Source of the DNA: Mytilus galloprovincialis
Lineage: Eukaryota; Mollusca; Bivalvia; Mytilida; Mytilidae
Assembly (NCBI RefSeq): GCF_965363235.1
Contig: NC_134847.1
Span: 61,226,439 to 61,290,438 of the forward strand
Direction of reading: 5' to 3'
Length of the DNA stretch: 64,000 bases
In this document: positions 9,005-61,534 of the stretch, one piece after another
Numbering within the stretch: position 1 is the stretch's first letter
Layout: every line of letters begins with the position of its first letter
The notes under the pieces: model-generated
What the model saw: only the letters and a program-made list of their open reading frames with translations
Database searches by the model: none
Told to the model about the DNA's origin: nothing
Program-made: the position numbers and the translations under genes

Positions 9005-9116
9005 TCAATTTAAAACAGTGTAAATCTCTTTCACTTTCGCCTTTTCTTTTCCAGTGTTTGAGAGGTATTCTTTAAGTGTGGATTTTTCTTTGTCGACATC
9101 GTCGAGGTCTAATTTT
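9005..9116 (-). CDS. SLC22 copy 1, exon 10 (charged C-terminal tail)
   Basis: Encodes the last 37 residues, a Lys/Asp/Glu-rich tail ([17 protein letters not shown] and onward) ending TVLN and TGA at 9005-9007. The acceptor is TTTGTAG|AAAA. Copy 2 keeps a similar but longer tail; copy 3 has none. Confidence 0.85.
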
Positions 9117-12100
9117 CTACAAATAAAAAAAAAAAACAATTTCAATGTCTATTTCCACCTTTGAAAGTTGTAACATTTTTATAAAGAGGAAGCTTTTAAA
9201 TGATAAATTAGGATCAGGATAATTAAAGCTTAATTTAAAATACACGGGGGCCTCGGTGGCCAATTGCAAGTGGTCAAAACAAAAGTAGTTATATTACTGT
9301 AATTAATAGCCAGTCAACACTCAGAATGTGAGTTCGAACATTGCTCATGCGGGTGCACTCGACTCCAATCTTAATTGACTAGGATCGTCAGTTTTCCTAT
9401 CGAAGGTCGGTTGTTTTCTCCGTGCACTCCGGCTTCCTGCACCAATAAAAAATGGCCGCCACGAAAAAGCCCAAATGTGGCTCTAAAAAGTGGCGTTTCA
9501 ACACCAACAATCAATCAGTTAACTACACGGTGCTGAAGACAATAGAAAAGAAAAATATATGAATGCAAAATACATCCCGAACAATTCAAAACAAACATAT
9601 ATCTCATAGACATGTAAAAAGAATGAAGTCCTCGCTTCTTTATGGATGGCAAAAATTAGCAAGACACCAGTAAATGCAATAAATGTGCCACGATATTTCG
9701 TCATTCTAACATACTATTGATTCAATTTTATATGCATTTACTTTATGAAATATTTGAATTCCCACTTTGCGGTTCACTGAAAATGTAATAGTGATCGGCG
9801 AAACAGGGTGCATGTCTTCACATACTCTTGATAAATAAGAGATAAAGATGATTGTGTTTTAAAAGCTTTAGTTAAAGCCCTGGCATTTATTTATGATACA
9901 CGTGTATGAATGCTGTAGAATGGACATATTTCTCGTTTTTATATTGATTATCATTTGACCGTTGGTTTTCCAGATTGAATGGTTTTACATTACTAATTTT
10001 TGGGGCCCTTTATAGCTTGCTGTTCGGTGTGAGCCAAGGCTCCGCGTTGAAGGCCATACTTTGACATATAATGATTTACTTTTATAAATTGTTATTTGGT
10101 TGGTGAGTTGTCTCATTAGCACTCATACCATATCTTCCTATATCTCTATATGGGAGACAGCTTAAAAATTTGAACTTAGAAATTTAAGATTAGAAATGAA
10201 TAAACTTTATTACTTTATGAGCTTCATCCGTTATAATGCGAAACAATATATATATAATACTATAATATGCAACCTTTGTAGGCGAATCATATACATTCCA
10301 ATTTTCTTGCATGGTTATTTTTTTCTCTTACATATATAGCTAGTTTTAAAACAAAATATGCATTGAAATCAAAAGATTTTCTTTCTTTTTTAAGTAGTGA
10401 AGTGTCTTTAATGAAAAATGCATTATGAATATCTGTCTTATTAAAATGAATGCAAGGAGTATACACAAACTCACTTTGTAAAATCTTTGGCTTCTCTTAC
10501 TGTTTCTGGTAATTTCCTATTTAAGGTCTCTGGAAGGATAAGACAAAGTAGTCCCGCAGAAACGGAACAACCACCAAATATAACTAATGGTAAAGCTTGT
10601 CCAAATTTGCCTCCAACAACATCAGCCTATAAAATAAAGCATACACTATATGCTTTACCAGTATAGTATACTATATGGCAGGATAAGTCTGTAAATACAC
10701 CAATCTGCATTCACTGTGCGAATCTGACTACGGACTTCCGAGTAATAGGACCCAAATGACATGTATCATCTTTATTTAATCTCCTTATTCATAAAATGCT
10801 TCCAAAGAAAAATTCTTATAAATATGTTGATGAAATTTTTATCAATAATCATTTACAATCAACATAAAACACGTGGTAAGGGTAAATATTACTTAAACTA
10901 AAATAGAACTTAAAGAAGAATAAATTTAACATAAATAGAACAGCATGTTCAACCATATCTTTGCGTACAGTCTAGGTCAAAAACATATAACGTACTGATT
11001 GAGCTACATATGGAGCCACCATTCCACCAATTCTTGCAATACAGGAGCTTAAACCCATTCCACTGTTTCGGACCACAGTAGGATACAGTTCCATGGAATA
11101 AACATAAATAATTCCGAAGGCTGCAGCTGAACCCATTTTTCCAATGATGGCTAAAGTTAGAGTTAATGGTTGCAATTCTGAAATATAGCAAGGCAAAATA
11201 ATGATAGAAATGCAAAAGGTTTTCAAATTCCAAAGAAGATTATATTGTCATGGTATCTTATAAATTGTGTAGGAATGAAATGTTTCTTTTTATAGCGTTA
11301 TTGTTTTGTTAAATTGTCGATGGATTCACATTAAAAATTCCCAGCTTCATATTAACAAATTTGTGCATGAGCAACGCTTTTACAACCATTTAAGATCATA
11401 AAATATTTCTTTTGATTTTTTATGGAATATTTTAACATTTTTGCTGATAGCACATGCAGTCGTATCATTTATATTTAATACAGAAATACAATTTCATATT
11501 GGAGTGTCTCTAGATTGTTGTCAACCAATGTGTGTATGTATGTGTATGCTCTGTAAGATTCCTCCGTTTTTCGGAGCACCCCTTCAGAGCTGCCAGGGTA
11601 GTGTAGTATCCGTGTACACTCCCTTTTAGGACTAATAAAGATGTGTCACTAACGTATTTACAACAATATCTACAAAAACAATCCCCAGCCAAACACAAAG
11701 GGAGTGCTAGGACAACGGAAAGTCTGTTATTATGGTGAAGGTAGCCGGAACACCCAACAGAAACAGATAAACCGAAGAGATATCAGTAGATCTGCAGGTC
11801 AAAATAGGGTCAACTTTGACCAACCTAGATCACCAAAGTAATAATCATAGTTGAAACCTCAGTCTGCGTACCAGAGAAGTGAATAGGAGGGTTAACATCG
11901 CCCTTCTCATGTCTGAAATTTTCAGCTCACAGATTCAGATTCGAACCGAACATTCAGCACTGGACCACGAACCCGCCTCAAAATCAAAATTACTGATTCT
12001 AATGGAACAAACATATAAAAAGTAAAATAGCAAAACAAATAAACCGAACTCCAATTCTAAACGGAAAGTACCTGATCAAATGGAAAAAATCAACGCTCAA

Positions 12101-15100
12101 ACACTTCAAACGAATGGAAAACTACTGGTGTCTTCCGTCCTTATATTGAAATTAAATTTGTTTTTTTTTGCGGCAATATATTTAATTTAAACGAATATCA
12201 CCTTACCATCACCTCCATATAGAACTGTAAATATTGTACATATACAAGCAGCGCCTCCAACAACCATACAGAAACAATGGATCTTTTTTCTTCCAGCGCG
12301 GTTTAATGTTGCCATAACAAGCAATTTAGCAGGAACTTCTACGATTGCAAGTATGAAAAAGTTTAAGTAAAAATTTCCACCAATATTGCCTCCAGTATGC
12401 ATGGTTACTCCATAGTAGACCATAGCAATCACTATCCTGAAAATAAGTTGTGATTACTTCATATGCAATCCCGTTAAATCTATAAACAAATGACGTGTTT
12501 ATAAATTTCTGTGAACGATGGTCAAATTATAATTGTAATTCATTTCATTTTATTAGTATTATCATTAACTGAACACAAAGTGATACCGATTATAACCTCG
12601 ATATTTGGTTTAATTTTTGTATTCGTTTTATTTCTTATTTTCATACACTGAAATATAGCATTGAACTTTAAAGTATTTCTTTTTACATCCCAAGCGTTTT
12701 ATTTGTTTTTGAAAGCACCTTTTTTTTAATGAAATCTGCATAACAGAAGCAGTATGCCATGAGACTACAGAAGTATATTATGAAAGATGAGTGCGTGTTT
12801 AAATTTATCTCTTCGACCTTTTGTCGGAAACGATAATTTATTTAAAGCTTTTTTTATCCTCCAACATTTACAAATCGGTTCTAATCTCTTTTGGTTTTAA
12901 TCCAAAGGATGAAGACCAGGATCTTCCATCCTTATATTGGATTCCTAAGCTTCAGAAGAATCCTTATAAGGAAAGGTATATTGCAGGTTTTTCCAAGTGT
13001 TCCACAAACCCCTTTCTAAAGTTCTTACTGCCATAATCACTGCAGTCCAAGAACGGCTTCCGAAATATTCCGAAACGGCATATTCTAGAAGTAGTGTTAT
13101 TCAGATGTGGATACTGAAAAATTCAAAAGAGTTATTGGTGAATTTACAATCTCAATCATTAAAACATTATACCAACATTAAAACCTTTGATTTTTCTACT
13201 CTTTATACCACTATTCCACATACTAAACTTAAAGCGCGACTGAAAGAACGCGTCAGCTTATGTTTCTTTAACAAAAAGGGCACTAGACGTTTTAAATATC
13301 TAGTTTTGGGCAGGAATTCAGCTTACTTTGTGAAAAATCATACAGAGTCAAGAAATAAATACACCGAAGAGGATATCACTGCCATGCTGGACTTTTTAAT
13401 TGACAACATATTTGTTGAATTTGGAGGTTTGATCTTCCAACAGACTATTGGAATCCCAATGGGTACCAATTGCGCTCCTCTACTTGCAGATTTGTTTTTG
13501 TATTCCTATGAAGCAGAATTTATTCAAGGGCTTGTACAAAAGGGTAAAAAAATAAATAAGCCCAGTCTTTTAATTTCACCTTTCGGTATATTGATGATGT
13601 ACTGTCTCTTAATAATAATAGTTTCAGTGATCACGTACATTTAATATATCCAAGTGATTTTTAGTGGAGTTCGTGTTGTTTCTTATTTCTTATTTATAAA
13701 TGTTGATGTAAATGTCCTTTGGTTTGTGAGTCTTTGTTTACTCCTTGGTTTTGATTGTTATTGTCTTATAAAAATAGATCTATGAAATATAAAGGAAAAA
13801 AGACAACATTAAAAAAAAAAGAGGAAGAAATATCAACCTTATATTTATAACGTGACGGTACCAAAATTCCATTCAATTTGACAGTTGTTTTTAATTAAGT
13901 TTATTTATGATTCAGACAAAATTTTCCATTTTGTGTTTATTGTTTATTTGTTGTTGAAGTTTCATTATTGCGGAAATTGTTCCACCTATTAAATTTAAAT
14001 TCATATTGAATCATAGAAAAACGGGTTTCAACAGACCTCCAAACGATCCGGAATGCTATAATAAGGAGAACCCAATTTGCATCCATGCTTAAATTCACAT
14101 CCTTAAAAACCAAATAACAGATATTTTGTTTATTTTTTTCAAATATTTAGACCAATTTGACATTGGTCCATGCTTACTGTTCATTTTTTTAAGAAATGCA
14201 TGCCTGTTACACATTTATTATTTGGTCATTTTTAAAAGACGACTTTTTGAGCACATGTGTCCGTAGATTTACCTTTTCTAGAGAATGCTTCATCTGTTGA
14301 TATAGACTGGGAACGTTTTGTGTATATTTCAGATATATTTAACTACATTGAAAGACGTGCATAATGTTAAATCATAAAAAATACAAATCATTTAGTTTCA
14401 AAGAAAACGTGTAAAATTTCCTCAGCAATTTTTATCGAATAGGTGCAATTTGGGTACTCGGTGTAATTTGAGAACTGTGACATTAGGTGTATAAATATCT
14501 CATACGCAATTATACCATATAAAGTATATGAATCAACCGATTGTATCTTACAATTCTATGGTCTGGTCTACGGTCTGGGGTAAAATATGTAAAAGTTGAC
14601 ACAGAAAATACACAACGTAAAAAACCCTCCGGTTACAGCTAAAAGAAGAAAACAAGAAAAGGCAGTTTAAGAAACTATCAAAATATCAGGAGAACGTATT
14701 CACCAAAAAAAATTTTTTACGGGGAAAATGAAATAACTGAAAAGAAATGAAAAAGAAAAGAGAAAAATCTATAATAACATTAACGATACCATTTTTCCTG
14801 CACCAGATGCGCATTTCGACAATACATGAATCTTCAGTGATGCTCGTGGCCAAAATATTTGAAATCCAAAGCTTATATAAAAGGTGATCAGCTATAGTCC
14901 AAAAGGTCAAAAAAGAATAGCCAAATCCGTGAAAGGAATCAGAGCTTTGCATGAGGGAGATACATTCCTTAATTTATAATAATTTCTAACATTTTGTAAC
15001 AGCAAATTTTAATAACAGAAAAAATCCGTATTTTCATGCCAGTACCGAAGTACTGGCTACTGGGATGGTGATACCCTCGGGGACTAACAGTCCACCACCA

Positions 15101-18100
15101 GAGGCATCGACCCAGTGGTAGTAATAACATTAACGGTACCATTTTTACTGCACCAGATGCGCATTTCGACAATACATGAATCTTCAGTGATGCTCGTGGC
15201 CAAAATATTTTCAATCCAAATCTTATATAAAAGGTGATCAGCTATAGTCCAAAAGGTCCAAAATGATTAGCCAAATCCGTGAAAGGAATCAGAGCTTTTG
15301 CATGAGGGAGATACATTCCTTATAAAATGATGGTGTTTTCTTCCGCGTCATCTGAATTCTGGTTGTTAGTTCTCTTATCTGCAATTATACCACATCTTCT
15401 TATGGTATACAGACACCTTTGTCATTTGATATTCACGTAACGTTGAACATTAACATTTCGCATTTTTTCCCCCACTAATCTAACAGAATTTCTTTCAATA
15501 TTTACCAGTTCCATAGAAGTATGATTGTTCTTTTAGTCATTTCTAATGTAGAAAACAAATGATACACGTTAGCCGTCTTTGGAGTCTCCAATGTCTTTTC
15601 ATCTATCAATCTAGATGGGATCTTTTTCTTGTTTACTTTTGCTATTCTTTGTATAATTTTTTCAGCATCATCATATTTTCCCATGCTTAATAGCCATCTA
15701 GATGATTCTGGGATCATCCTATGAGGAATTTAAAAACAATTCAATTATCATACAGATTGTATATATTATTTTAAAGCATTACCAAATATTTGAAAGCGTC
15801 TAGGTATTGTAATACCATGAGTATATAAACTCATCATAGATACCAGGACTAAATTTTGTATATACGCCAGGCGTGCGTTTCGTCTACAAAAGACTCATCA
15901 GTGACGCTCGAATCCCAAAAAGTTAAAAAGGCCAAATAAAGTACGAAGTTGAAGAGCATTGAAGACCAAAATTCCTAAAAGTTTTGCCAAATTCAGCTAA
16001 GGTAATCTATGTCTGAGGTAGAAAAGCCTTAGTATTTCAAAAATTCACAATTTTGTAAACAGTTAATTTATAAATGTAACCATATCAATGATGATTCATG
16101 TCAGCACAAAAAGTGCTGACTACTTGGCTCGTGATACCCTGGGGGAAATAAATCTCCACCAGCAGTGGCATCGACCTTTTGATATTTGTTTATGCTCTGA
16201 CTTTTTTTCGGTATTCTTTTATTCTATTTTTTATTTTGATCAGAATTCACTATCAAAAACACTTTCCCATACTAATGTTTTAAATGGAGAGCAAAAGTAA
16301 ACTATGGTGTCATAATATAACCTACAAAGAAGCAATAAAACGCGTAAAAGTCATAGATGTAGCTATGAATACATATTGGACAAAATGCTTATTATATTTC
16401 CTGTAGACAAATTTGATTAATTATAAAACAATGTATTCGTAAACCTACCACCAATAAAATAAGAAAACTGCGAATGGAGCACCGACTGCCAGCTGTACAT
16501 AAAACCAGTTACGCAAAAGATACCCCATCAATGCTATATACATTATACCAAATGCAAAGAAGATATGTATAGGAATTCCGGTAAGGACTCTCTTAGACGG
16601 TCCAACATATTCCAAACCTTTGGAGAAAAATAAAGAAAATAGATGTGTATGAGTCGATTATGTCTATTTCACTTTTGCATAATATTTTTTTTAACTTTTC
16701 AACAGCTTAGAATTAATGATCATAAAAACACTGCGTGTTCTAAAAGTCAGCTAAATACTACACTGGATTTGAAAAAAAAACCTAAAGTATTTCGATTTAC
16801 CAACACTCATTCATTTCAAAATCATTTTAAAGTCTCAAAGGGAAAAGGGGTACAAACGGGAACATAAGATTAAATATTCAGCAACAGACACCTAAAACCC
16901 AGAAGCAATATACAGCGATTATAATTTCTTTCAAACACAAATTAAGGAAAAAAATACCGTTTCCAAGGAGAAATTAAATATAGTCTCTAATCATATATTT
17001 TGTAGATAATACAGTAGTTTTAAATGTTTGATAAATAGCCTGCTGTTTAATCTGTATCTTTGATGCACACCGTTTATCACACCCCTAGTCGGATTTCTAT
17101 TATATTGATCGATCTTTGATTTTTGGCTACCGGTATTCTAATGTTGCCTTTATTTATTGACAACAATATGTGAGCAAACCGAACAGACATTATATGTTAT
17201 GTTCAAAACTACGGTACAGCAGTCAGCATTATACTATGATATAAATCAATATAAAAACAAATAACCATGTCAACAATGAAAAACTAGAGGCTCTAAAGAG
17301 CCTGTGTCGCTCACCTTGGTCTATGTGAATATTAAACAAAGGAAGCTTATGGATTCATGACAAAATTGTGTTTTGGTGATGGTGATGTGTTTGTACATCT
17401 AACTTTACTAAACAGTCTTGCTGCTTACAATTATGTCTATCTATAATGAACTTGGCCCAGTAGTTTCAGTGGAAAATGTTAATAAAAATTTACAAATTTT
17501 ATGAAAATTGCTAAAAATTGATTATAAAGGACAATAAATCCTTAGGGGGTCAATTGACCATTTCGGTCATGTTGACTTATTTGTAAATCTTACTTTGTTG
17601 AACATTATTGCTGTTTGCAGTTTATCTCTATCTATGATAATATTCAAGATAGTAACCAAAAACAGCAAAATTTCCGATTCAGGGGCAGCAACCCAACAAC
17701 GAGTTGTCCGATTCATCTGAAAATTTTAGGGCAGATAGATCTTGACCTGATAAACAGTTTTACCCATTGTCAGATTTGCTCTAAATGCTTTGGTTTTTGA
17801 GTTATAAGCCAAACTGCATTTTACCCCTATGTTCTATTTTTAGCCGAGGCGGCCATCTGGATTTGATGGCCAGGTCACCGGACACATTTTTAAAACTAGA
17901 TACCCCAAAGATGATTGTGGCCAAGTTTGAATTAATTTGGCCCAGTAGTTTCAGAGGAGAAGATTTTTGTAAACGATAACTAAGATTTACGAAAAATGGT
18001 TAACAATTGACTATAAAGGGCAACAACTCCTAAAGGGGTCAACTGACCATTTCGGTCACTTGACTTATTTGTAAATCTTACTTTGCTGAACATTATTGCT

Positions 18101-21100
18101 GTTTACAGTTTATCTCTATCTATAACATGTATAATAATATTTAAGATAATAACCAAAAACAGCAAAATTTCCTTAAAATTACCAACTCAGGGGCAGCAAC
18201 CCAACAACCGGTTGTCCGATTCATCTGAAAATTTCAGGGCAGATAGATCTTGACCTGATAAACAATTTTACCTCGAGTCAGATTTGCCCTAAATGCTTTG
18301 GTTTTTGAGTTATAAGCCAAAAACTGCATTTTACCCTTATGTTCTATTTTTAGCCGTGGCGGCCATCTTGATTTGATGGCCGGGTCACCGGACACATTTT
18401 TTTAAACTAGATACCCCAAAGATGATTGTGGCCAAGTTTGGATTAATTTGGCCCAGTAGTTTCAGAGGAGAAGATTTTTGTAAAAGATAACTAAGATTTA
18501 CGAAAAATGGTTAAAAAATGACTATAAAGGGCAATAACTCCTAAAGGGGTCAACTGACCATTTCAGTCTTGTTGACTTATTTGTAAATTTTACTGTGCTG
18601 AACATTATTGCTGTTTACAGTTTATCCCTATCTATAATAATATTCAAGATAATAACAAAAAACAGCAAAATTTCCTTAAAATTACCAATTCGGGGGCAGC
18701 AACCCAACAACGGGTTGCCCAATTCATCTGAAAATTTCAGGACAGATAGATCTTGACCTGATAAACAATTTGGCCAAGTTTGGTTTAATTTGGCCTAGCA
18801 GTTTCAGAGGAGAAGATTTTTGTAAAAGTTAACGACGACGGACGTAGGACGACGACGGACGCAGGACGACGACGGACGCAGGACGACGACGGACGACGGA
18901 CGACGCCGGACACCGGACGCAAAGTGATGGGAAAAGCTCAATGGCCCTTCGGGCCAGGTGAGCTAATAAAAAAGCATATAGACACTCTTTTGACAAAGCA
19001 CATATTAAGCAAAAATGAAAATATAAGGAAACAAAAATTAGAGTAATGGCATACAAGGAACGAACACGTATCAATATATATGTTTTTGTCATTTTGTTTA
19101 TATAATGGTTGATGTATGTTATTAGGTCTTTCCACCTTTCATGTGGAAAGACCCATTGATTTTGTTCTGATTATTTTTTTTTTCTTCCACCTAATTTTTT
19201 TCTTGCGGTGTAAAAATGTTTCAAAAGATGTCGCTTAGTTTTTTTGTATATGAGATCATACAGTCTATACGCTTTTGAAACTCACCCTGTTTAACCGAAC
19301 ACTTTTCTTTGTAAGAGTTATCTCCCCAAACACTGTTTTTCTTGTTATCAGATCTCCTCCGCAACCGTAAAAGAAAGCGACAAATTTATTTTTCCAAATT
19401 GCTCGTTATATCCTCAGGATGTTACGTTTTATTTTGACCGAAGCTTTACGAAGACCCCATATGAGAGTAATTTCCCCTTTTGTATTGAAATAAGTGAAAT
19501 AAATTTGTAACTGGAAAACCATAAGTGATAGAGGCCTAGGGTCTTTTGATTTGAGGCCCTTGCTCAAAAAGTATGAAAATGAGGTCAAGGTCAAAGGTCA
19601 AGGTCATGTTCAAATTTTTGATTTTGGCTTGTTATCTCTTATTTTCAGAAATCATACAAGATATCGACAAAATATTTTCACACAATTGTTAGTTACGACA
19701 TGTCGTAACACATAAATTTTAGTCAAAAGGGTACGTAGACATTTGACGCGAGTTTTCCCCCTTTTTATATCTAATATCATACGTATGGTAATATAACTCA
19801 TTAACAATATAAAGTAGAGGACTAGAGTCTTTTGATTTGAGGTCCTTGGTTTATGACCTTGAAATTGAGCTCAAGGTCATATGCTAATTAAACGTTCTAG
19901 ATTTTGACCTTTGCTTTTACCTCATATGAACACATGATAAAGCCATGGGACTTTTTGCATTAAGTTGTAAGCAATGTGACCTTAAAAAACACAACCGGAA
20001 GTGACCTTTTGTAAACCGGAAGTAGCTATTTTTTGTACTATATCAATGTAAAAGTATATAGAACCATATATTTTTGGAATCAGTGTCAAGTAAACTATCA
20101 AACAATACCGGAAGTAAACTTTTTAAACCGGAAGTAAAAGATTATCTCCCTTTAATATATATTTTTTTATAGAAACCATATATTTTTTTAATAAGCTTTC
20201 AAAAAGCTGTCATTTGGCGCTAAAATTGACATTTAAAACCAAATTTTAATATTTTCATATAAAAAAAAGGTCTTAACTGGTGGAAAGACCATCAATGGTT
20301 CTCTGAACAATTGGTTTTTAATTATTATTATTTTTTTTTTATCTTTTCAAAAAATTATTTTGACTTTCGAATTAAAGATAATGTATCTTGTTCAGTGCTG
20401 TATGTTGACTTTTAAATGATGTTTTGTTGTTATGTTGGGTTGCTCTCTCATTGACGTTTATATATAACATCTCCTATCATCTCCTATCATATACTATACA
20501 TACTCATGACACAACATATCATAAATCCACCGTGATGTGCAGCACCAATCATGAACTCAAGTATTACAAATACTAAAAAACTCTGCGAGAAAGCAACGCC
20601 AACAGCCATTGCCAATGTTATAGCGGTTGATATCAAAAACGTTTTTTTTCTTCCAATTCTGTAATAAGAAAGCAAATTGAAAACCGAAATGAATTGTTAT
20701 TTTTTCTATTAGGGTAAATTATATTTTTCTTTAGTTTCAATTGGGTCAATATGAAATGCAACGTCCATAATACGTTGTCTTGTTTAACACTCTATACTAG
20801 CCATGTTTTGCTGTTTCTTATCTAGTAAGTTGTAGCAGGTTTCAATGAATATGTAAAGATAGCCATATTTATACGATGGTATTTATAAGGTTGTAGAAGT
20901 AGTGAAGTGACTTAAAGGAATTTGTCAAAATATTACCCATTTTAGCATATAAATTGATCACCTGTTTTGCATATAGCTATCAAAGGTACCAGGATTATAA
21001 TTTAATACGCCAGACGCGCGTTTCGTCTACATAAGACTCATCAGTGACACTCAGATCAAAATATTTGTAAAGCTAAACATAATATCTTTCTCTGTCTCTC

Positions 21101-24005
21101 TGTTTGCCTGTCTTGTCTGTCTCTCTCTCTAGTTAAATTTTCTTACTTGTCTGACAATATACCAAATGACACATCACCAACAAGAACTCCACCATAAAAT
21201 ATCATCTGGGCATGTGATCTTTTAATTGCGTCATCGCAAACAAAGTTCATCTGCAAATACAAACCTAACTAGTATAGGGATAACGTTTCTGTGTATAAGT
21301 TTATTCCAATTATATTCATTGTTCGCCCCATTTGATAGTTTAATGTTCCTCGATCTGGTAGAGTCAGGCTATTTTCAACATTGACCCTTGATTATATATT
21401 CTCGACAAAAAACTAACTCTCTTGTTTTTCGATATTTTTTTATTTGTTGTAGAGCATTAAGTATTGCCTTGTATCATATAATCAACTATTGTCAGCTGGA
21501 ATAAATCGTTTGATTTGAATCGACAATTGATTTTGAAATTTCAAATGAGTTCGAGGACAATGATGGATTGCAGTGTACAACGTCAAGGTAGTAGCAATTA
21601 TTATTTTCGTTTCAGGACGAGAACATGTAAATGAGGTATGAATATTAACCTAACTTTGTGCTAGACTGATTTCTAGCTGGATTTTAATGTGCTAGTTCAT
21701 AGACAAACAGTCCAAATCATATCATTCTATCCGGGTTTCTTAATCTGCCTCGAGACGTGACGACTAGTTTCTCCTCCAAAATCTCAAGTACTCAGCTGAG
21801 AAAGCAGCAACTACCGATTACCATGTCTATAAATTGTTTGATCCCACTAAGAAACAAACCCACAACCTCCAACACTAGAGGCGAGCATATTTTACTGAGC
21901 AGGCTTGTTGATTAAGCTTATACCACAAAACCCCTAAAGCGATTCCAAATAGTCTTTAAGATAGTACTGACTATGACACAGACCTTTGAAGCAAATGTTT
22001 CATGGAAAGTGTTGGTATCATACACCCATTTGGAACATTTGACCGTGTCTCTGGTGTTATTTCTGTACTGGTAGTAATGACAGCGATCATACTTGTGTAT
22101 CTCATCATGAGATGGTGGAATTGTTTTGTTAATTTTACTGGCATGCTGGTTGTTCTGTACATTGTAAGTATCATTGTTCAAACCAGGTATCTGACATCTA
22201 AAATTGAAATAATAATATACAGTGCTATTTATGTAAGAAAGCAGATGAACCAGGGGTATTTCAAAGCACGTCTCGTCCTTTAAATAAAAGTTCATTGAAA
22301 GATAACAAGACATTGTTGGTTAATATTCCGAATCAATTCCACAAGAAATACACGATGGTTTTGGGGTATAGATTCCATTTACTGACGTTGTTTATAATAG
22401 TAATAACGTTTGATAGTATACTTTTATTTGTCTTTGCCAATTATTACTTTTAACTGTTAAGTATATTTTTGGCAATATCAATTTGACGTGGCTCGTATTT
22501 TTTTTACATTTGTATCTATAGTTTCTGTTTGTTTTGTTCACACATCATTGACAATACAATGGAATTTTATGCGAATATTATACAAGTTAGAGATTTAACT
22601 AGCCATAAAACCAAGTTTAATCCACCATTTACTACATAAGAAAATGCCTGTACCAAGTCATGGATATGACAGTTGTTATCATTTCGATTGAAGTGTTTGA
22701 TCTTTTAATTTTGTCATTTGCCTAGGGCATTTCCGTTTAGAATTTTACGGGTAGTTTGGTTATTTTTGTTATTTCATTTTTTAAATGCTTTTTTTTTTAA
22801 ACAAATGACAGATATAACTACCAAACTTTCCTACGTTCCATTTTTTTTTAAAATAGTGTGTGCGAAACCAAGGTAGCAGTTGATACCTCCGATACAACAG
22901 TTATAAATGTATATATTAAAACAAATTTAAAAAAAAAAGAAAATTATTTATTTCTTGATAGAAAAACGATATAGGACTAAAATAATAAGACTGTTCATTA
23001 CGATACTTTTGTCTTCATCTTTCAAGGCTACAGAACAGTAAATTTTGGTGTTATCAAATTCTTACCTTGTTGTATGCAAGAACATGTTAGCTTTAAAGGC
23101 ATTACAAATCTTTTGTCAGTGACATAATAAAAGGCAATATATAATAAATTCTAATGAATTGTATCAAGATTATATCGATACTAATTATCAAAGCATTATT
23201 CCCCCATTTCACGATACTTATATTGATAAAGTTAACCCGTCTAGAAATCATCTTTATTAATATTTTTATTTTACTGATCAGGCCTGTTGATCAAGCTTAT
23301 AATCACTCATTGCGTCTGATAGTTTTTGGAGCAAAACATAATTTGGTGGGGAAGTTTGAAATCTCAAAACTAGCTTTAGATGTGTCTCCACATGAGGAAA
23401 AATAGCATTTGTTGGTTTATGTTTATCATAATTTAATCATTGAATTAACTGGTGCTGAGAGGAGAACTTTTTATAGTTTTATATTGCTACTTTTTGATCA
23501 TTTAGCAGCATTACGATTTTGAAAGAAAACTTATTATCTCGGTGTCGTCCTGAACATGCATGACATATGTGCCACTGGATGTTAAGCAACCAACAAACAA
23601 TCAATATTGTGTCGGTGTTTTTGTTTATGTGTCAGAGTCTATCTATATGCTTATTGTTATCTTACTGCTTTGCACGTTTGCAAATCTGTCTCCGCGTGTT
23701 GGTTCAGCTTAGGTCTCATATGATATCACAATGAAATAGTTCCGTCCTGATATAACCATGTAATATTTGTTGCTGAACAATAAACACCAATCTTTTCATC
23801 CTCTTACTCATCAAATCAAAATTATAATTATAACACAAAATTATTTAATTTTAAGTTCATACCTGTGTTTTGGAGCATGCATAACAAAGACCAACATCAT
23901 CATATAGCATCCCGTACTGATAGCTGGCAAACATAGCAACAAATAGAGACGTTTCTGGTAGTATCCAAACTCACCGATGTGTTTTAAAATGTCATCAAAT
24001 TTCAT
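9005..24005 (-). CDS. SLC22-family transporter, intact 10-exon gene (copy 1)
   Basis: Ten exons join in frame with GT-AG borders: 24005-23863, 22197-21984, 21250-21147, 20658-20504, 16617-16449, 15718-15506, 12436-12207, 11177-10996, 10626-10475, 9116-9005. They total 1674 nt, or 557 aa, normal for SLC22 (12 membrane segments, plasma membrane, organic cation/anion/zwitterion transport). Residues 20-42 form the first membrane segment. A large loop follows with sequons at N56, N71 and N94 and Cys 49, 87, 102 and 124. The MFS loop motif GILSDKIGRKK is at 149-159, PESSRWL at 265-271 and ELYPTVVRN at 439-447. A charged 37-residue tail closes the protein. The start [14 protein letters not shown] is typical of the family. 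An AG preserved 6 bases before the ATG in all three copies hints at a 5' UTR intron. The substrate cannot be inferred. Copies 2 and 3 are decayed. Confidence 0.9.
9245..9517 (+). mobile_element. tRNA-type SINE in intron 9
   Basis: The head GGGGGCCTCGGTGGCC and the box-B-like GTTCGAACATTGC about 80 bp later are the two parts of a pol III promoter. The body has CGTGCACTCCGGCTTCCTGC and the tail is AACACCAACAATCAATCA. The size of about 270 bp fits a SINE. Its box A is imperfect, so it is probably not active. Confidence 0.65.
9970..10160 (+). repeat. Dispersed repeat, GGGGCCCTTTATAGCTTG family
   Basis: Starts near GAATGGTTTTACATTACTAA and ends near TCTTCCTATATC. Close copies lie at 30373-30545 (+) and 53820-54000 (-). 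There is a short hairpin-like stretch at GTGAGCCAAGGCTCCG. Noncoding. Confidence 0.6.
10475..10626 (-). CDS. SLC22 copy 1, exon 9
   Basis: Encodes residues 471-520: the last membrane segment ([20 protein letters not shown]), [13 protein letters not shown], and the start of the cytoplasmic tail. If intron 9 were kept, the donor itself would give AAG TGA, an immediate stop. Confidence 0.9.
10996..11177 (-). CDS. SLC22 copy 1, exon 8
   Basis: Encodes residues 410-470, with two membrane segments and the family signature [16 protein letters not shown]. It ends in phase 0 after VAQS, with donor GTACGT. Confidence 0.9.
11990..12130 (+). repeat. Dispersed repeat, related to 26270-26470
   Basis: Shares the order AAAAGTAAAATA, CCGAACTCC, CGGAAAGT, CAAATGG and CAAACGAATGGAAAAC with copies at 26270, 50585 and 61535. 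It lies in intron 7, upstream of exon 8. Confidence 0.5.
12207..12436 (-). CDS. SLC22 copy 1, exon 7
   Basis: Encodes residues 333-409: membrane segments around [12 protein letters not shown] and [15 protein letters not shown], a NRAGRKK loop, and a Cys-rich segment. The donor is GATG|GTAAGG. Confidence 0.9.
12860..13760 (+). mobile_element. Penelope-like retroelement fragment 1
   Basis: Contains reverse transcriptase motifs of Penelope-like elements: [16 protein letters not shown], then [12 protein letters not shown], and [20 protein letters not shown]. It joins directly to a 3' tail (about 13650-13755) that also ends the element at 36540. The copy is broken (at least two breaks) and its middle-to-3' part is missing. 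It sits in an intron of the SLC22 gene, on the opposite strand. Confidence 0.75.
14780..15120 (+). repeat. GATGCGCATTTCGACAATAC-core repeat, fuller copy
   Basis: Begins around CACCAGATGCGCATTTCGAC and carries CTTCAGTGATGCTCGTGGCC. It ends with CAGTACCGAAGTACTGGCTA, GGTGATACCCTCGGGG and GCATCGACCCAGTGG at 15040-15118. Its core and tail align with the separate family copy at 15836-16185. Confidence 0.65.
15121..15325 (+). repeat. Second, directly repeated copy of the same core repeat
   Basis: Repeats about 200 bp of the preceding element nearly word for word, from TAACATTAACGGTACCATTT to GAGGGAGATACATTCCTTA. It abuts the first copy, so it is either a tandem duplication or two insertions at one site. 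Confidence 0.7.
15506..15718 (-). CDS. SLC22 copy 1, exon 6
   Basis: Encodes residues 262-332: the signature [10 protein letters not shown] and the large cytoplasmic loop, ending [10 protein letters not shown]. The acceptor is CTCATAG|GATG. Confidence 0.9.
15836..16185 (+). repeat. GCGCGTTTCGTCTAC-core repeat, full-length type
   Basis: Starts near ATACCAGGACTAAATTTTG, has GGCGTGCGTTTCGTCTAC and GACTCATCAGTGACGCTCG, then GAAGAGCATTGAAGACC, and ends with GTGCTGACTACTTGGCTCG, GTGATACCCTGGGGG and GCATCGACC. Other copies or parts are at 2865, 20985, 31395 (-), 51135 (-), 53146 (-, part), 55126 and 59326 (3' part). It sits between exons 6 and 5. Confidence 0.65.
16449..16617 (-). CDS. SLC22 copy 1, exon 5
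   Basis: Encodes residues 206-261 from [11 protein letters not shown] through two membrane segments to FAVFLFYWW. The acceptor is CCAAAG|GTTTGG and the donor TG|GTAGGT. Confidence 0.88.
17286..18966 (+). mobile_element. Internally repetitive element with hairpin ends
   Basis: The left end has the palindrome GAGGCTCTAAAGAGCCT and GTCGCTCACCTTGG. The right end has GGCCCTTCGGGCCAGGTGAGC. GCTCACCTTGG and CCAGGTGAGC form short inverted termini. The interior holds 2.7 copies of a unit of about 500 bp (the CATTTCGGTCA block recurs near 17560, 18050 and 18560). A GACGACGGACG tract runs at about 18834-18912. An inverted copy with one internal unit lies at 31640-32423. There is no coding capacity; it is likely non-autonomous. 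It sits in intron 4 of the transporter gene. Confidence 0.7.
19125..20290. mobile_element. Element with palindromic GGTCTTTCCACC ends
   Basis: The left end (19125-19153) is a hairpin, GGTCTTTCCACC...GTGGAAAGACC. The right end (20269-20290) is GGTCTT...GGTGGAAAGACC. The outermost bases therefore form inverted repeats, and each end can also fold on itself. The interior has repeated TTTTGATTTGAGG-CCTTG blocks, a CAAGGTCA-rich zone and four exact ACCGGAAGT sites (19994, 20015, 20107, 20127). Noncoding; family unknown; in intron 4. Confidence 0.65.
20504..20658 (-). CDS. SLC22 copy 1, exon 4
   Basis: Encodes residues 154-205: the IGRKK half of the loop motif, then two membrane segments including [18 protein letters not shown]. 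Splice phases fit exons 3 and 5. Confidence 0.88.
20985..21075 (+). repeat. GCGCGTTTCGTCTAC-core repeat, 5' part
   Basis: TACCAGGATTATAATTTAAT, then the core GACGCGCGTTTCGTCTAC and GACTCATCAGTGACACTC; truncated soon after. It sits in intron 3. Confidence 0.65.
21090..21132. repeat. CT-rich tract beside exon 3 donor
   Basis: A TCTG/TCTC tract ending CTCTCTCTCTAG lies about 14 bp from the exon 3 donor (GA-rich in the sense of the gene). Equivalent tracts are at 43203-43232 in copy 2 and about 60605-60620 in copy 3. Confidence 0.6.
21147..21250 (-). CDS. SLC22 copy 1, exon 3
   Basis: Encodes residues 120-154 from MNFVCDDA, the second membrane segment ([17 protein letters not shown]), and the first half of the MFS loop motif. 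The donor AA|GTAAGA is followed within 12 bases by a GA-rich tract. Confidence 0.88.
21984..22197 (-). CDS. SLC22 copy 1, exon 2
   Basis: Encodes the extracellular loop (residues 48-119) with three N-glycosylation sequons (NDT, NKT, NNT) and Cys 49, 87 and 102. The acceptor is TTTTAG|ATG and the donor AAG|GTCTGT. The antisense frame here is a shadow. Confidence 0.9.
22618..22790 (+). repeat. Dispersed repeat, CCTGTACCAAGTCA family
   Basis: AAATGCCTGTACCAAGTCAT, then GACAGTTGTTATCATTTCG, TTTGATCTTTTAATTTTG and TTTCCGTTTAGAATTTT. It is the reverse complement of the family seen at 26270 and 61535. It lies in intron 1 of the transporter. Confidence 0.5.
23530..23612 (+). repeat. SINE tail fragment
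   Basis: TCGTCCTGAACATGCATGAC, then GCCACTGGATGTTAAGCAAC and CAACAAACAATCAAT is a 3' tail of a molluscan SINE type. The tRNA-like head is absent. Confidence 0.45.
23863..24005 (-). CDS. SLC22 copy 1, exon 1
   Basis: Encodes residues 1-47 plus two bases: the amphipathic start [19 protein letters not shown] and the first membrane segment, rich in Leu and Met. The donor is AG|GTATGA. It joins exon 2 to give the HRC motif at the start of the extracellular loop. Confidence 0.9.
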
Positions 24006-38994: not shown

Positions 38995-40196
38995 ATTAAA
39001 ATTTCAAAACCCTAATCCGTGATCATTAATATACATTAAACAGCAAAATAAGCATTGATGCAAGATCTACACAAAATATTTAGTTTAGGAACCTTTGGTT
39101 TTGCCAGTTTCTCTTCGACTTATTCTGGGTTTTTGCTGTTCCTTTGGTTTCTTCTATCTTTTTTCATGATATTTTATTTGGTTTATTTAGCATGCAACAA
39201 GTTTGTGGCAACGAATAAACGACTAATTTTAGTCGAAATAAAAATACACCTCACCATCTCCTCCATATAAAACTGTGAATATGGTACATAGACAAGCTAC
39301 ACCTCCGACAACCATAGAAAAACAATGGATCTTTTTTCTTCAAGCGTGGTTTAATGTTGCCATTACAATCAATACGGCAGGAACCTCTACGATAGCAAGT
39401 ATGAAAAAATTTAAGTAAACATTTCCGCCCAATGTGCCTCCAGTATGCGTCGTTACTCCATAATATACCATAGTAATCACTATCCTGAAACAAATTGTTA
39501 ATAATTTATGATTTAATGCAAACAAATCTATAAAAACAATACTTGTTTATTAAAACATTAGCAGTTAAACGTTTGTCAAATTACATGGAATTATATTATT
39601 TAATTCATTATATATTTGAATCACATGTAGTATCAACTGATAGAATGCATCAATATATCAATTACAAAATCGATATTAATGCTCCTCTATCTTCTGAAGC
39701 ACTCGAGATTGATGGATTTTATGTTGCTCAGTCTGTAGTTGTCTATGTAACATTAATGAACTTGTTTGATTTTTGTCGTTTTACGTTATTTGCGATGGCA
39801 TTGTGGGTTTCTCTTTGAATAGATCAGCCTCTTTATAATATGTTCCGATCGATTGATTATGTAGACAACTGCGTATCTGTTTTGTTTTCTTATAAGATAA
39901 GTCAATCAATTACGGTTTTATATTTCAACAATTTTACAAAGGATCTATAAAATGTAAACCAAAAAAACAAAAGGAAAGGGCACGGAGCAATCAAAGAGCT
40001 GGACAGTTACTTTAAGATTTGAAAGAAGTGTAATTACATAAAGGCTTAAAGCAAAGATACAGAACATTACGTATGACCCAAATAAACAAAAATAGCATAC
40101 ACTAGAAAGTAACAGTAACAACGTTTATAAAAAATACAAACGGGTAATATTAATCAAAAAAATTAAAAACAAACACATGACCAACAGGTGAAAGCA

Positions 40197-43237: not shown

Positions 43238-45417
43238 TTGTCTTACTTGTTTGCCAATATACCAAATACTACATCACCAACGAGAACTCCTCCATAAAAT
43301 ATCACCTGAGCTTGTGATGTTTTAATTGCGTCATCACAAACAAAGTTCATCTGTAAAGGAACACCTCATTTGGATAGAAATTACATCTCTAAGTTTATTC
43401 CAGATGTATTAATGTTATGACACTCATGAAAGAATAATTACATCGTAATCTTAAGGTGAAATGAACAATGTTTATTGCATGGTTTAATGTTCCTCAGCTG
43501 TTATGTAGTATCAGGCTGTTCTCAACACCGACCCTTAATAACGGTAAAAAATCTAATCTTAATATTCGGAGAAAAAAAATAAAAATAACTCGCATGTTTT
43601 TCGATGTTTTATTTGTTGAAGTGCATTAATTATTGCCTTGTGTCATATAATTAATAATTGTCAGCTGAACTAAATCATTTGACTTTTATCGACCATTGAA
43701 TTCGAAATGTCAAATGAGTTTGAGGTCAATGATGGATTGCGATGTACAACGTAGCAAATATTTCAGGACGATAGCATGTAAAATTTGTGAAATGAAAATG
43801 AAAACTGCTAATGCTAGACTGATTTCTTGTTTGATGTTAATGTTCAAAGTTCATAGGATACAATCCACATTATATCATTCTATCTTAGTTCATTATTCTG
43901 CTTTGTGCCGACTAGAAACAGCACATACCAATGTTCATATCTATTGTTTGATCTCCCTGGGAAAATACACACAACCTCCAACACTGGAGGAGAGCATATT
44001 ACCACGAAACCCCTAAAGCGATCCTAAATAATCTTTAAACAAAAATTAATATGACACAGACCATTTAAGCAAAAGTTTCAGTGAAAGTGTTGGTATCATA
44101 CAGCAATTTAGAACATTTGACCATGTCTCTGGTATTATTCCGGAACTGGTAATAATGACAGCGATCATACTTGTGTATTTCACCATGGGATGGTGGAATT
44201 GTTTTGTTGATAATAGCAGTAGTAGTAGTCATCTTTAATAATATTTCTATTTTACTGAGCAGGCTTGTTGATAAAGCTAATAATCACTCATTATGGCTGC
44301 TATTTTTGGAGTAAAACATTATTTTGTAGGGAAGTTTGAAATCTCAGAACTAGCTTTAGATCGCCACATGTGCATGAGTCTGTATCTTTTGCTGGTTTAT
44401 GTATATCGTTATGGTTTGACCATTTAGATAATTGGTACTAAGTTCAGATCTTTTATTCTTTTATATTGCTACTTTCTTGCTTACTAAGCAGTATTAGGAT
44501 TTAGAGAGAAACCCGATTATCTCGGAATATTTTTTATGTGTCTTGGTCTATCTCTCTGCGTATTGTTATCTTACTGCTTTTCACGTTTACAGCCCGTCTC
44601 CGCGTGTTTGTTAAGTACAACAGTTAATTAGTTTTTATAAATAATCACATTGATATAGTCTGTAATATGTGTTGCTGAACATTAAACACTAATCTATTCA
44701 TCCTCTTCCTTATCCCATCAAAATTATAATCATGGCACAAAATTATTTATTTTAAATTCGTACCTGTGTTTACGATGATGCATAACAAAGACTTACATCA
44801 TCATATAGCAGCCCGAACTCATAGATGGCAAATATAACAACAAAAAGAGGCGTTTGTGATAGTATCCATACTCACCGATGTGTTTTAAAATGTCATAAAA
44901 TTTCGTGCTTGTCTACAAAATATGTCAGTGTCATCAGAATGTATATCTGTATTCTCATCAACCACAGTATAATGTTAAAGAGATATACACAAATAAATTT
45001 AAAGTACAAAGTGTAAAATATAAATGCAAGTTCACAGAAGCGACATAAACTGGTTACCAAGGGGAATCTATGCATTCAATAATTGTTTGTATAAATGTGT
45101 ACAACTTGTTATATTTTACTTTCAAGTCAATAGTACATCTTAGTAGGACGTTCGCATTGTCTACATTTTACCATTAGATAACCTTTTTAAACTATGTTGT
45201 CATTACTGATAAAGGTTTTATTTTTAGAATGTAACATACATGTCTCTATAAGTTCAAGTTATAATTTTACAAGCACTATCATATAAAGACATCTAATATA
45301 TGCATATTATATTAAAAAAAATTTACAAATAAATTTAAGAGATTGAGGTGTAACATGATGTTAAAAAGACATCGTTGATTGTTTTTGTAGATAAAATTGT
45401 TAAACTCATTATGGACT

Positions 45418-45675: not shown

Positions 45676-45680
45676 AATAA

Positions 45681-47365: not shown

Positions 47366-47388
47366 CCCTTATATATGTGTGTACTCAC

Positions 47389-51305: not shown

Positions 51306-51892
51306 TATTTACGTTTACTGTCATCCAATCAGAACCATTGATACACATGAATTGCATAACAATGTACATTTTAATTCAAAAGGCAGAGAGCTTTATACTT
51401 TGAAATTAGAAACATTAGATATGCATGAACTTTATTACTTCATTGCTTCTCCTTTATATTGTTGACCACTGTTATATTATGGAACCATTTTAGATGAATC
51501 ATATATACTCAAATTCAAATCACGATGGTTATGCTTATGTTACAAGTTTTAGAACTTGATGAAGTGCATTGTATATGTTAGGTTTTTTTTGTTTTGTTTT
51601 ATGACATACAATGGTTTAAATTCATTATGAATATAAATCTTTCTAAATATATGAAATAAGTATACACAAACTCACTTTGTAAAATCTTTGGCTTCTCTTA
51701 CTGTTTCTGGTAATTTCCTAGTTAAGGTCTCTGGAAGGAGCAGACACAGTAGTCCCGCAAAAACTGAACAACCACCAAATATAACTAATGGTAAAGCTTG
51801 TCCGAATTTACCGCCAACAACATCACCCTATGAAATACAGCAGACAGTTTATACCTAACTTGGTATATAATTAAATTCAAATACGGAAATAC

Positions 51893-52838: not shown

Positions 52839-53279
52839 AAGAACCTACTGATTGATCTACATAAGGAGCAACCATTCCACCAATTCTTGCAATCCAGGAG
52901 CTTAAACCCATTCCACTGTTTCGGACCACAGTAGGATAAAGTTACATAGAATATACATAAATAAGAGCGAACGCTACAGCTGAACCTATTTTTCCAATGA
53001 TGGCTAGAGTTAAAGTCAGTGGTTGCAATTCTGAAATAAAGAAGATACACAATGATAATGAAAGTGCATAACATAAAAGTGTCCATTACAGAAAATTTAC
53101 GTGATGTAGTCAATATCAAATAAATACTAGTAAGTTTTATATGGAACGCGCGTCTTGTGTATTAAATTATAAACCTGGTACCTTTTGATAGCTAACATTC
53201 GTGTGTTTCTCTGTCCCATGTTATCTTTCATGTATTTGTATTGTAGTACTGTCATGCAATGTTGTCATTTTAATGCTAT

Positions 53280-55290: not shown

Positions 55291-58200
55291 TTTTTTTTCA
55301 ATTTTCCTGATTTTTTTGTAACCTCGAGCCTCCTTAAATACATGTTTAATACGCAATAATGCACTTTAAACAGCAAAATAAGCATTGATGCAAGATCTAC
55401 ACAATAGCTTCAGTTAAGCGAATAAGACCCTTAGAAGTATTTTATTTTACTATAGGGTTGGTGGTTACTTTTCAATTTTTGCTGTTTCCTTTGTTTCTTG
55501 TGTCTTTTTTCTGATATTTTGTATGGTTTATAAGGCATCTAACACTTCTATGGGTACGAATAAACGACTAATTTTAGTCGAGATAAAAATACACCTTACC
55601 ATCACCTCCATATAAAACTGTGAATATTGTACAAAAACAAGCTACACCCCCATCAACCATACAGAAACAATGGACCTTTGTTCTTCCAACGCAGTTTATT
55701 GTTGCAATTACAAACAATTTAGCAGGAATTTCTACGATAGCAAGTATGAAAAAGTTGAAGTAAAAATTGCCAGCAATATTGCCTCCAGTATACATCGTTA
55801 TTCCATAATATACCATACCAACCACTATCCTAAAAACAAGTTGTGAATTATGTGTGATGCAAAGCAAACAATTCTATAAAAATATTTCCTGTTTATCAAT
55901 AGCTGTAAACGCTAGCCAAATTACAATGTACTATATTAATTCATTCATTATATATTTGGATCACATGTAGTATCAATTGATTGAGTTTATATCGATATAT
56001 CGATTATGCTTCTCTACCTTTTGAAGCACTGGAGATGTATGGAGTTTATGTTGTTGAGTCTATGTAACATTGATAGACTTGTTTGTCTTTTTTTCGTTTT
56101 TAGTGTTTTACCATGGCTTTGTGAATTCTCTTTTGAATTTTTTGCCTCTTTGTAATCTGTTCCATTGTTTGTTTTGCTTATAAGAATAGTCAATTGATTA
56201 TTGTTTTATATTTCAAACATTTTACAAAGGAATTTATAAAATGTAAACAAAAAGACAAAAAGAAGGGAAAAGAGTATTTCAAAAGTTACATTCTGTATGC
56301 TGGTGTGATGTTCTAAAATATATCACGAGGCTTCTCTGAAACATAGGATTAAGACTAATGGTAAAGACAAAACCCTAACAACGCACCAAGTAATCAAATA
56401 GCTGGCAGATACCTTCAGTTCAACATGACTTAATAGAATTGAATTGTTTTGCACACACGACAAATAAAAAAATGTAAGAAGGATAAATGGGACAGGACAT
56501 GATTTATGACAATAGGGACTATAAAAGTATGCCCCAATAAGTACCGACTATCAGGTTGTCAGTATATTGATATCGTGTATAAGTGGTTCTATACCTTCAG
56601 CGTCCTTTAAACCCTTGCTGATAGTTGTCTCATTGGCATTCATACTACATCTCCTAATGTTTATACAGACACATAAGTAATTTGATATACATGTCACGTT
56701 GAACATTGATATTTCACATTTTTTTCGAACTAATCTACCAGAATTTCTGTAAAGAATTTACCAGTTCCATAGAAGTATGATTGTTCTTTTAGTCATTTCT
56801 AAGGTAGAAAACAAATGATACACATTTGCCGTCTTTGGAGTGTCCTGTGTCTGTTCATAAATTATCCTAGATGGGATCTTTTTGTTGTTTACTTTTGCTT
56901 TTTGTTGTATAATTTTTTCAGCATCATAATATCTTCCCTGGCTCAAAAGCCATCTAGACGATTCATGTATCATCATGTGAGGACATTAATACCTTTATCT
57001 ATATCTTAATAGAACAGTACGATAATTATTTTTGATAGATAGTTTTTGGTGTAAACATAGCAGATAAGCTGGAAGGCGTCCAAGTATTCAGTAAAAAGCA
57101 TAAAATACAAAAATTAGATATGAAAAAAGTCGACAAAATAATTTGACAATGTGCTTCTTATGCATCAATATAACACAATGGAAAAAGAAATGACTGTATT
57201 ATTAAACGAGGTTTGTGTAAACTTACCACCAATAAGATAAGAAAACTGCAAACGGAGCGCCTACTACCAGCTGTACATAAAACCAGTTACGCAGAAGATA
57301 ACCCATTAATGCTATATACATAATACCAAACGAGAAAAAGATGTGTATAGGAATTCCAGTAAGGACTCTTTTAGATGGTCCAACATATTCCAAACCTTTC
57401 AAGGAAAAATAGAACAATATGCATTTAATGTTTTTTTTTAATTTTAATTATGGTAAAAGTGTAAATGCTGCATGACTTATGAGGTGAATTTCGTAAACAA
57501 ACAGAAGCTGAAACGTATTTTTTTTTTATTATTAAAACCAAGGTCATGTTAAATAGGTTTATTAGGAATACTGGGAAATAAGTTCAACTAATTATGCAAC
57601 TGTTACTGTCAAATAAAACGCGGTAGCTATATATAACCAAATATCGAACATGTTTTTTACATATTACATATGTTACAGACTTTTGAATACCTCGAACTTT
57701 CCTTTAATTTGTATACTATATTTCTTATGAATATTTATTGTGCAACATTTCCTTGATAATGCATCCAATGCTATGTAAATATTTAACGTATGGTTTTACT
57801 ATGGAGGTCGAATAGAGGTAATTTATTGACTATATTAAGTTAAAAATTTCTAAGAAATATACTAAAAAAAAAATCGTAAGAGAAAAATAACCAAAACCAA
57901 AACAGAACATTTTAATTAGAGATTGAGAGGACAAACCCCACTTAAAACCTGAAAGTCATCAACCATTTACATAATTAACTCGAATGGCATGGCAGAATGA
58001 GAAATTTAAGAATCTGAAAATTCATTTTTACATCTGTTCGCGAGAAACTCCTTGCTTACGGCTAATGTTGGTAATTAAAATTAAAAGTCATACACAAATA
58101 AAATTTTGAACACAACACATTTTGTTGACGCATCTACAAAAAATATACACTACTTAAATGTTAATATATAAAATATCACTCTGTGGTATAGAATAAGAAG

Positions 58201-59410: not shown

Positions 59411-59782
59411 CTACATGATTCGGAACAATTCACAGTTCTGAAGACATACATACATACTCATGACACAACATATCATAATTCCACCGTGATGTGCAGCACC
59501 AATCATGAACTCAAGTATAACAAATACTAAAAAGGTCTGTGAGAAAGCAACACCAACAGCCCGACTAATGTTATAATGGTTGATAACAAGAATGTTTTCT
59601 TTCTGCCAATTCTGTAAAAAAAAATGTAATTAAAAATTAGAATAGATTATTAGTTTTATTTATCTCATGATATATTGTAAATTTTCGGGTTTTACTTTAA
59701 CTCAACACAGAAAAGGTATTATAATATAAACTATTTCATTATGGAATACATCTATAATACTAAAATAACGAGGTCCAATTTG

Positions 59783-60440
59783 TCAGCCGTCATTGGGTAA
59801 AAACGACAAATCAAAGAATTCAACTTTATATATAGCTAATACAGGACAATGGTGTAGATTAAAAATTACACCACTCCAGACCCTTTTGTTTTCCACATAA
59901 TTAATATTGCCAATAATTAACAAGTTCCGGGTCGAATCCGATACCGATACCAATAGTATATTCACCTGTTACCTATTACTTTATCTGTACGTTCCGCATC
60001 TGACAGGCGCACAACCAAACGATGTACTTAGGATTTTGCTATACACGGGTCATAATCACAGGGTTGACACTACTAAATTCAATCATTGTCAAATTGTTCC
60101 CTATTGCAGTATTTTAATCAGTAAGACTTTCTAAGATAACAATACGATTACTAAAAATCAGGACTTGAAATAAGGCGTATAGGTACAGTTTTCAATTTGT
60201 AAGCGGGCATGACTAAAACAGCGAATCAAGAATTCAACTTTATTTATAAATAATATAGGACAATGCAGTTGATTAAAAAATACTCCATTCCAGGACCTTT
60301 TGTTTTCCAAATAATTAATATAACCAATTATCGATAAGTTCCAGGTCACCGGGTTCAAACAGAAAGATTTGAAAGCAGAGAACACTGTGTATCTTATAAT
60401 CGGCATGACTTTATCATATGACAATACCAATACTAAAATA
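59783..60440. repeat. Two diverged direct copies, spaced about 400 bp
   Basis: Copies at about 59783-59965 and 60195-60360 share AGAATTCAACTTTATATATA-like, AGGACAATG, ATTACACCACTCCAGACCCTT / ATACTCCATTCCAGGACCTT, TTTGTTTTCCA and ATAATTAATAT segments. They lie between exons 4 and 3 of copy 3. Confidence 0.6.
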
Positions 60441-61534
60441 AGGCTTACGAATAGTTATATTCTTTAATTGAGTAACGGACCCGCGATATCACGGGTATGT
60501 TCTAGTAGTTAATAATAGGTACGCTGTCCTCATAGTTCTCCGTATGAAACATGGGTTGCTGCTCTCATGAAATGTATAACACCTACGTTCTAACAAGATA
60601 AAATCTCTCTCTATCTCTTAATCCGAGTTTCTTACTTGTCGGATAATATTCCAAAAGAGACATCACCAACAAGAACTCCTCCATAAAATATTATCTGGGC
60701 ATGTGAGGTTTTAATTGCAAACAAGGTTCATCTGTAAAGACACACCAAATTGAAATAAATATAAAATATCTGTAAAACAAATTCTTTCGAATATTATTTC
60801 TTTCATAAATTTCATGCCACTCGTGATAGATAGAGTGCATGCATCACCATTTTAAAGTGAAATAAAACGTAAACAATGCCAAATTAATTCATAATCTTTC
60901 TTCGTAATCCTACATATCGCGTATGAAAAGAAGAAAATGACATGCTTAACAGAAAAGCAGCAAATACTAACTAGCAAGTCTTTGGTTTAAACCCATACTA
61001 GATGGTAGCACGTGACCACGAGACAAATTAGGTGGTCTAGATAATTTTATTGGATAACTTATTATGACACATACCTTTGAAGTGAAAGTTTCATGAAATG
61101 TATTGGTATCATACACCCATTTAGAACATTTGACCATGTATCTGGTGTTATTCCTGTACTGGTAGTATTGACAGCGATCATACTTGTGTATCTCATCATG
61201 GTATGGCGGAATTGTTTTGTTTATAATACTGGCATGCTGACTGGTCTATACTTGATAAGTATCATAGTTAAAACCAGGTATCTGACATCTTTAATATGAA
61301 TAATAATATACAAGGCGATTTTAAATTAAAAGAAAGATATGTCATCTACATGCCAAATTGTTTTTATACAATTGATAAATATTACTTATATTCTTTTTCA
61401 TGTTTATCTAAAATAATATTAATAGTAACAAATAGAGCCGTTTTTGGTAGTATCCAATCAAACTTCATGCTTGCCTACAACAAAACATTTCTATGTCATC
61501 ATATGCGGATGCATCTTTATTCTCGGAAATAAAG

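Follow-up and report, generated by a model that had tools for sequence, protein, structure and literature searches.

A four-copy tandem array of SLC22-type transporter genes in Mytilus galloprovincialis with two intact outer copies and two inner pseudogenes that seem to have died late and separately

Tandem clusters of SLC22 genes that include pseudogenes occur in animals, with head-to-tail paralogues of which some are dead. Within the family, the OCT subgroup is defined by an aspartate in the C-D-I/F/L-G-G site, and two residues of OAT1 (SLC22A6), K382 and R466, matter for anion handling. Translated by eye, the oligonucleotide table of PMC10643130 places these two residues in the contexts VDLPAK and MARVGS. 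How does a mussel locus compare with these systems? The array analysed here consists of four SLC22-type transporter units that lie side by side, head-to-tail and all on the minus strand, the outer two (copies 1 and 4) being intact and the inner two (copies 2 and 3) dead. No such array appears in the titles or abstract openings among the matches listed for SLC22 or organic anion transporters in mussel, and a search for SLC22 gene family expansion in bivalves returned no literature match.

The window, i.e. the whole stretch of 64,000 nucleotides that was analysed, corresponds to C10:61226439-61290438 of an assembly of 1.38 Gb in 331 contigs. In window coordinates and on the minus strand, copy 1 spans 24005-9005, copy 2 44906-33845, copy 3 61468-51676 and copy 4 83330-68534 (exons of the copies inside the window in Table 1). 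The initial annotation had described three ten-exon units in the same orientation between 9005 and 61468, and these limits are exact to the nucleotide: the copy 1 stop codon ends at 9005, and the ATG in copy 3 exon 1 begins at 61468. The orientation was borne out throughout, and the units do derive from a ten-exon gene on one strand; copy 3, however, keeps only nine exons, one of them as a remnant, exon 10 not being found downstream of exon 9 by blastn and tblastn (E 1e-3). Likewise, the count of one intact and two dead copies is right within the window but falls short for the whole array, as a fourth, intact copy starts about 4.5 kb past the window edge, which illustrates how counting intact copies within a window alone can be misleading. 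This unit was found at C10:61298505-61309768 when the whole genome was searched with the protein of copy 1. By tblastn at E 1, neither the 30 kb beyond copy 4 on the right nor the 10 kb before the left edge of the window showed a further unit. Elsewhere in the genome the best exon piece is 73% identical among the 78 of 306 candidates that were scored, a selection by which decayed copies may be missed. Paralogous SLC22-like genes, which match copy 1 in similar exon pieces at 40-73% identity, lie at C10:32.39-32.40 Mb and 67.32-67.34 Mb, and more are found among the matches listed at C10:74.55-74.74 Mb and C11:46.38-46.47 Mb, suggesting a larger SLC22-like gene set, mostly on contig C10 among these matches. 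Compared with two paralogues the four copies form one clade (support 100/100), and pairwise dS among them is 0.29-0.37.

Table 1. Exons and exon remnants of the three copies inside the window (window coordinates; codon numbers in the copy 1 register)
Feature	Position	Strand	Remarks
Copy 1 exon 1	23863..24005	-	start codon, TM1
Copy 1 exon 2	21984..22197	-	large extracellular loop
Copy 1 exon 3	21147..21250	-	
Copy 1 exon 4	20504..20658	-	
Copy 1 exon 5	16449..16617	-	
Copy 1 exon 6	15506..15718	-	
Copy 1 exon 7	12207..12436	-	K370 site
Copy 1 exon 8	10996..11177	-	R458 site
Copy 1 exon 9	10475..10626	-	
Copy 1 exon 10	9005..9116	-	stop codon
Copy 2 exon 1	44764..44906	-	start codon mutated (ATG to ACG); stop at codon 38
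Copy 2 exon 2 remnant	44062..44211	-	lacks its first 64 bp and acceptor; stop at codon 118
Copy 2 exon 3	43247..43350	-	open
Copy 2 exon 4	42676..42842	-	insertions +8 and +4
Copy 2 exon 5	41684..41851	-	stops at codons 232 and 247; -1 frameshift
Copy 2 exon 6	41017..41229	-	open
Copy 2 exon 7	39255..39484	-	stop at codon 381
Copy 2 exon 8 remnant	36110..36239	-	+1 frameshift; lacks its last 53 bp and donor
Copy 2 exon 9	35038..35188	-	stop at codon 495; -1 frameshift
Copy 2 exon 10	33845..33948	-	AGA in place of the terminal stop
Copy 3 exon 1 remnant	61422..61468	-	ATG present; ~26 bp deleted internally; 3' part and donor unrecognisable
Copy 3 exon 2	61075..61288	-	stop at codon 62
Copy 3 exon 3	60636..60731	-	8-bp deletion
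Copy 3 exon 4	59458..59611	-	1-bp deletion
Copy 3 exon 5	57227..57395	-	open
Copy 3 exon 6	56762..56974	-	open; acceptor AG lost, intron ends CACAT
Copy 3 exon 7	55600..55829	-	open
Copy 3 exon 8	52849..53030	-	stop at codon 439
Copy 3 exon 9	51676..51827	-	open

Copy 1 had been reported to read through in frame with canonical splicing for 557 aa, and this is what its ten joined exons give (1674 nt, 557 aa plus stop, GT-AG at 9/9 introns). Copy 4, the sequence of which was fetched and aligned, also has ten exons and GT-AG at 9/9 introns; it codes for 554 aa, and 520 of the 554 aligned residues are identical to copy 1. The dN/dS between the two is 0.11. When the copy 4 CDS was mutated without selection at 0.15 substitutions/site, which is about half of the copy 1-copy 4 dS, a mean of 9.3 stops arose and 0 of 2000 simulated sequences remained stop-free, so that a frame would not be expected to stay open by chance. 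Both copy 1 and copy 4 seem to be under constraint still; they are presumably expressed, and their products would be located in the membrane.

Several other features were observed in and around copy 1. On the plus strand, two ORFs in the same frame (5814-7802 and 7923-8927) have endonuclease and reverse-transcriptase matches, with the reverse-transcriptase domain split across both; the pair (5814-8927) stops 78 bp away from the stop codon of copy 1 and probably represents a broken non-LTR retroelement. Intron 6 of copy 1 holds a weak reverse-transcriptase fragment (12997-13644, plus strand) below the Pfam cut-off. A 542-aa ORF at 696-2324 (plus strand) contains an AIG1 (GIMAP-type GTPase) domain (E 4.4e-70), and at its 5' end lies a 54-bp tandem repeat (685-979), the unit of which is a multiple of three. 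A Pfam scan of six window stretches, of which one overlaps copy 1 exon 2 and another copy 2 exon 8, gave no match at 0.01.

Copies 2 and 3 combine retained introns, tandem position and disabling lesions, the features of duplicated (non-processed) pseudogenes; since they keep the intron layout, they are duplicated and not processed. Counted in the copy 1 codon register, copy 2 carries six in-frame stops and copy 3 two. In an exon-by-exon alignment, compared by eye, stops, frameshifts and splice-site losses were found in both copies and none was seen in common, as the initial annotation had stated when it called the two dead by differing lesions; its further claim that they died separately is upheld by the unshared lesions together with dN/dS along both dead branches. 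A mobile-element insertion upstream of the copy 3 ATG was considered as a cause of death, as positions 61550-61757 resembled an insert relative to copy 1. This reading was dropped because copy 4 has related sequence at matching places (83770-83658, 83621-83542 and 83414-83342), and the sequence around 61550-61757 is probably shared with copy 4 and not a lesion. Just downstream of copy 2 lies a 49-bp tandem repeat with 9.8 copies (32840-33323).

When did the inner copies lose their function? In the five pairs that include a dead copy, dN/dS is 0.18-0.26. Maximum likelihood codon models, run on 554 of the 557 columns (complete codons 558, 513, 481 and 555 in copies 1, 2, 3 and 4) under three topologies, give an omega of 0.10 for copy 1, copy 4 and the internal branches and of 0.26-0.29 for the dead branches, that is, relaxed purifying selection in copies 2 and 3. 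Stop codons, indel-touched codons and replaced exon ends were left out of dN/dS and inserted bases were dropped, and the masking of stops and indel codons probably makes omega on the dead branches come out slightly too low. Under each of the three topologies the two-ratio model beats the one-ratio model by 7-9 lnL units, and fixing omega at 1 on the dead branches is rejected, being 27-34 lnL units worse. In a model with a switch to neutrality, the neutral share of the branch under the best topology is 0.23 for copy 2 (~0.10-0.42) and 0.18 for copy 3 (~0.07-0.34, interpolated), the ranges being those where 2ΔlnL < 3.84; the other two topologies give 0.23-0.24 and 0.14, respectively. A neutral share of 0 costs 2ΔlnL 14.6 for copy 2 and 10.4 for copy 3 under the best topology. 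Calculated by hand as fraction times branch length divided by 3, the neutral phase amounts to ~0.03-0.04 substitutions/site. Judged from these sequence comparisons, copies 2 and 3 seem to have been functional for most of their separate history and then to have died late and separately. The stops of copy 2 exceed the ~2.75 expected for a neutral phase of ~0.04/site (P(>=6) 0.059), which is in mild tension with a late death. Moreover, gene conversion from the intact copies could lower omega on the dead branches and make death look later than it really was, and recombination would blur a dN/dS estimated on a single tree.

Copy 2 is probably a hybrid, with a copy-1-like 5' half and a copy-4-like 3' half. 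The aligned length of its introns 1-4 is 1983 bp against copy 1 and 527 bp against copy 4, and that of its introns 5-9 is 434 bp and 2048 bp, respectively; these are summed totals, in which intron 7 of the copy 1-copy 2 pair fell under the 30-bp limit and which are also shortened by repeat insertions in one copy. Of the exon sites that distinguish copy 1 from copy 4, exons 1-3 hold 16 at which copy 2 is like copy 1 and 8 at which it is like copy 4; for exons 4-10 the figures are 27 and 67, exon 10 alone contributing 16 of the 67. Fisher's test gave p 0.0009 at the best of four splits (after exon 3) and 0.007, 0.03 and 0.09 at the others; the same split test yielded no hybrid signal for copy 3 (p 0.29-1). 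The mosaic is likely to have arisen by unequal crossing-over or conversion. Given the probable mosaic nature of copy 2, none of the trees is taken as the history of the four copies: one-ratio codon models prefer the split of copies 1+3 from 2+4 by ~4 and 6 lnL units, internal branches are short in all three topologies, and the two outgroup paralogues, with their exon pieces of 40-73% identity, gave no settled order of the forks.

Altogether, the locus is best explained, with a probability of roughly 0.9, as a four-unit SLC22-type array in ordinary birth-and-death evolution, of which copies 2 and 3 lost constraint independently and late, copy 2 is probably a hybrid and the products are likely anion carriers. 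Most likely all four units were working genes at the time of the split; after each inner copy had, late and on its own, come free of constraint, it would have collected stops, indels and splice-site losses, and copy 2 would probably also be the product of a crossover or conversion. As neighbours that are both dead, copies 2 and 3 might instead be duplicates of one already dead copy. This is very improbable: they have no disabling lesion seen in common, omega on their own branches stays far enough below 1 for that value to be rejected, a neutral fraction of 1.0 costs 2ΔlnL 25.5 (copy 2) and 31.4 (copy 3) under the best topology, and the split that pairs them (1+4 from 2+3) is ~4 lnL units worse than the best under the one-ratio model. 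It is just as hard to believe that errors of assembly or sequencing account for the lesions and that all four copies function. Four lesions are indeed single-base indels (copy 2 exons 5, 8 and 9; copy 3 exon 4), one of them in a short T run, but the remainder comprise 8 substitutions to stops, a start codon change, an 8-bp deletion, the +8 and +4 insertions, truncated exons, the loss of an acceptor and the absence of one exon, and the raised omega in the remaining codons is independent of the lesions.

Could the dead copies serve a non-protein role, their RNA acting as antisense or decoy to copies 1 and 4? Nothing direct speaks for it and the odds are slight: exon pieces of the dead copies are ~77-98% identical to intact ones, but this identity is explained by recent death, and omega is raised and exon parts are lost. 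Somewhat more credible, albeit still unlikely, is that the dead copies are segregating null alleles and intact versions of copy 2 or 3 persist in the population. The short neutral phase would fit segregating alleles, and ~0.03-0.04 substitutions/site is not far above the allelic divergence in very polymorphic bivalves. In addition, a Mytilus gene family with gene presence/absence variation is reported in PMC10138031. Against this stand the many lesions in each dead copy, in the one assembly examined. Carried further, the inner copies would have died so recently that intact alleles segregate, unequal crossing-over would continually make and break copies, and working copy number would vary among individuals, a scenario to which a similarly small chance is given.

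To which family do the intact copies belong, and what might their products carry? The SLC22 identity proposed initially agrees with a near full-length match of copy 1 to SLC22-type MFS transporters among profiles and PDB sequences. Sugar_tr and MFS_1 (MFS fold) score above the Pfam cut-off, the PDB sequence matches include OCT2, OCT3, OCT1, OCTN2, OAT1 and URAT1 (best E 2.5e-86), and TIGR00898, the model of the 2A0119 organic cation transport family, matches residues 11-512 of 557 (E 6.5e-119). The TIGR00898 score of 398 bits lies below the NCBIfam curated cut-off of 550.75, which is a threshold for naming and not a defining feature, in a model presumably curated for other taxa; the filing under SLC22 follows from the PDB matches and the length of the match. 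As in the SLC22 family, a long cysteine-bearing stretch follows the first hydrophobic segment (by eye). The best overall PDB sequence matches are OCT1-3 (SLC22A1-3), topmost OCT2 and OCT3, but unlike in OCTs the Asp of the C-D-I/F/L-G-G site is Arg458 in copies 1 and 4, and the Ala/Gly at the PAK site is Lys370. OAT1 is less similar overall to copy 1 than the OCTs are, whereas the Lys and Arg of copies 1 and 4 stand in its K382/R466 contexts, a local motif match only (PMC10643130). In the paralogues at 32 and 67 Mb the Arg is retained and the Lys site is occupied by Tyr. Organic anions are the likeliest predicted substrates of the intact products; as overall similarity is highest to OCT2/OCT3 and not to OAT1, this call rests on two residues. 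For annotation, copies 1 and 4 are genes and copies 2 and 3 pseudogenes, and the array is a tidy example of birth and death among tandem genes, the list of lesions and the codon models both pointing to late, separate deaths. Set beside the tandem SLC22 clusters with pseudogenes of other animals, the present array showed nothing distinctive.
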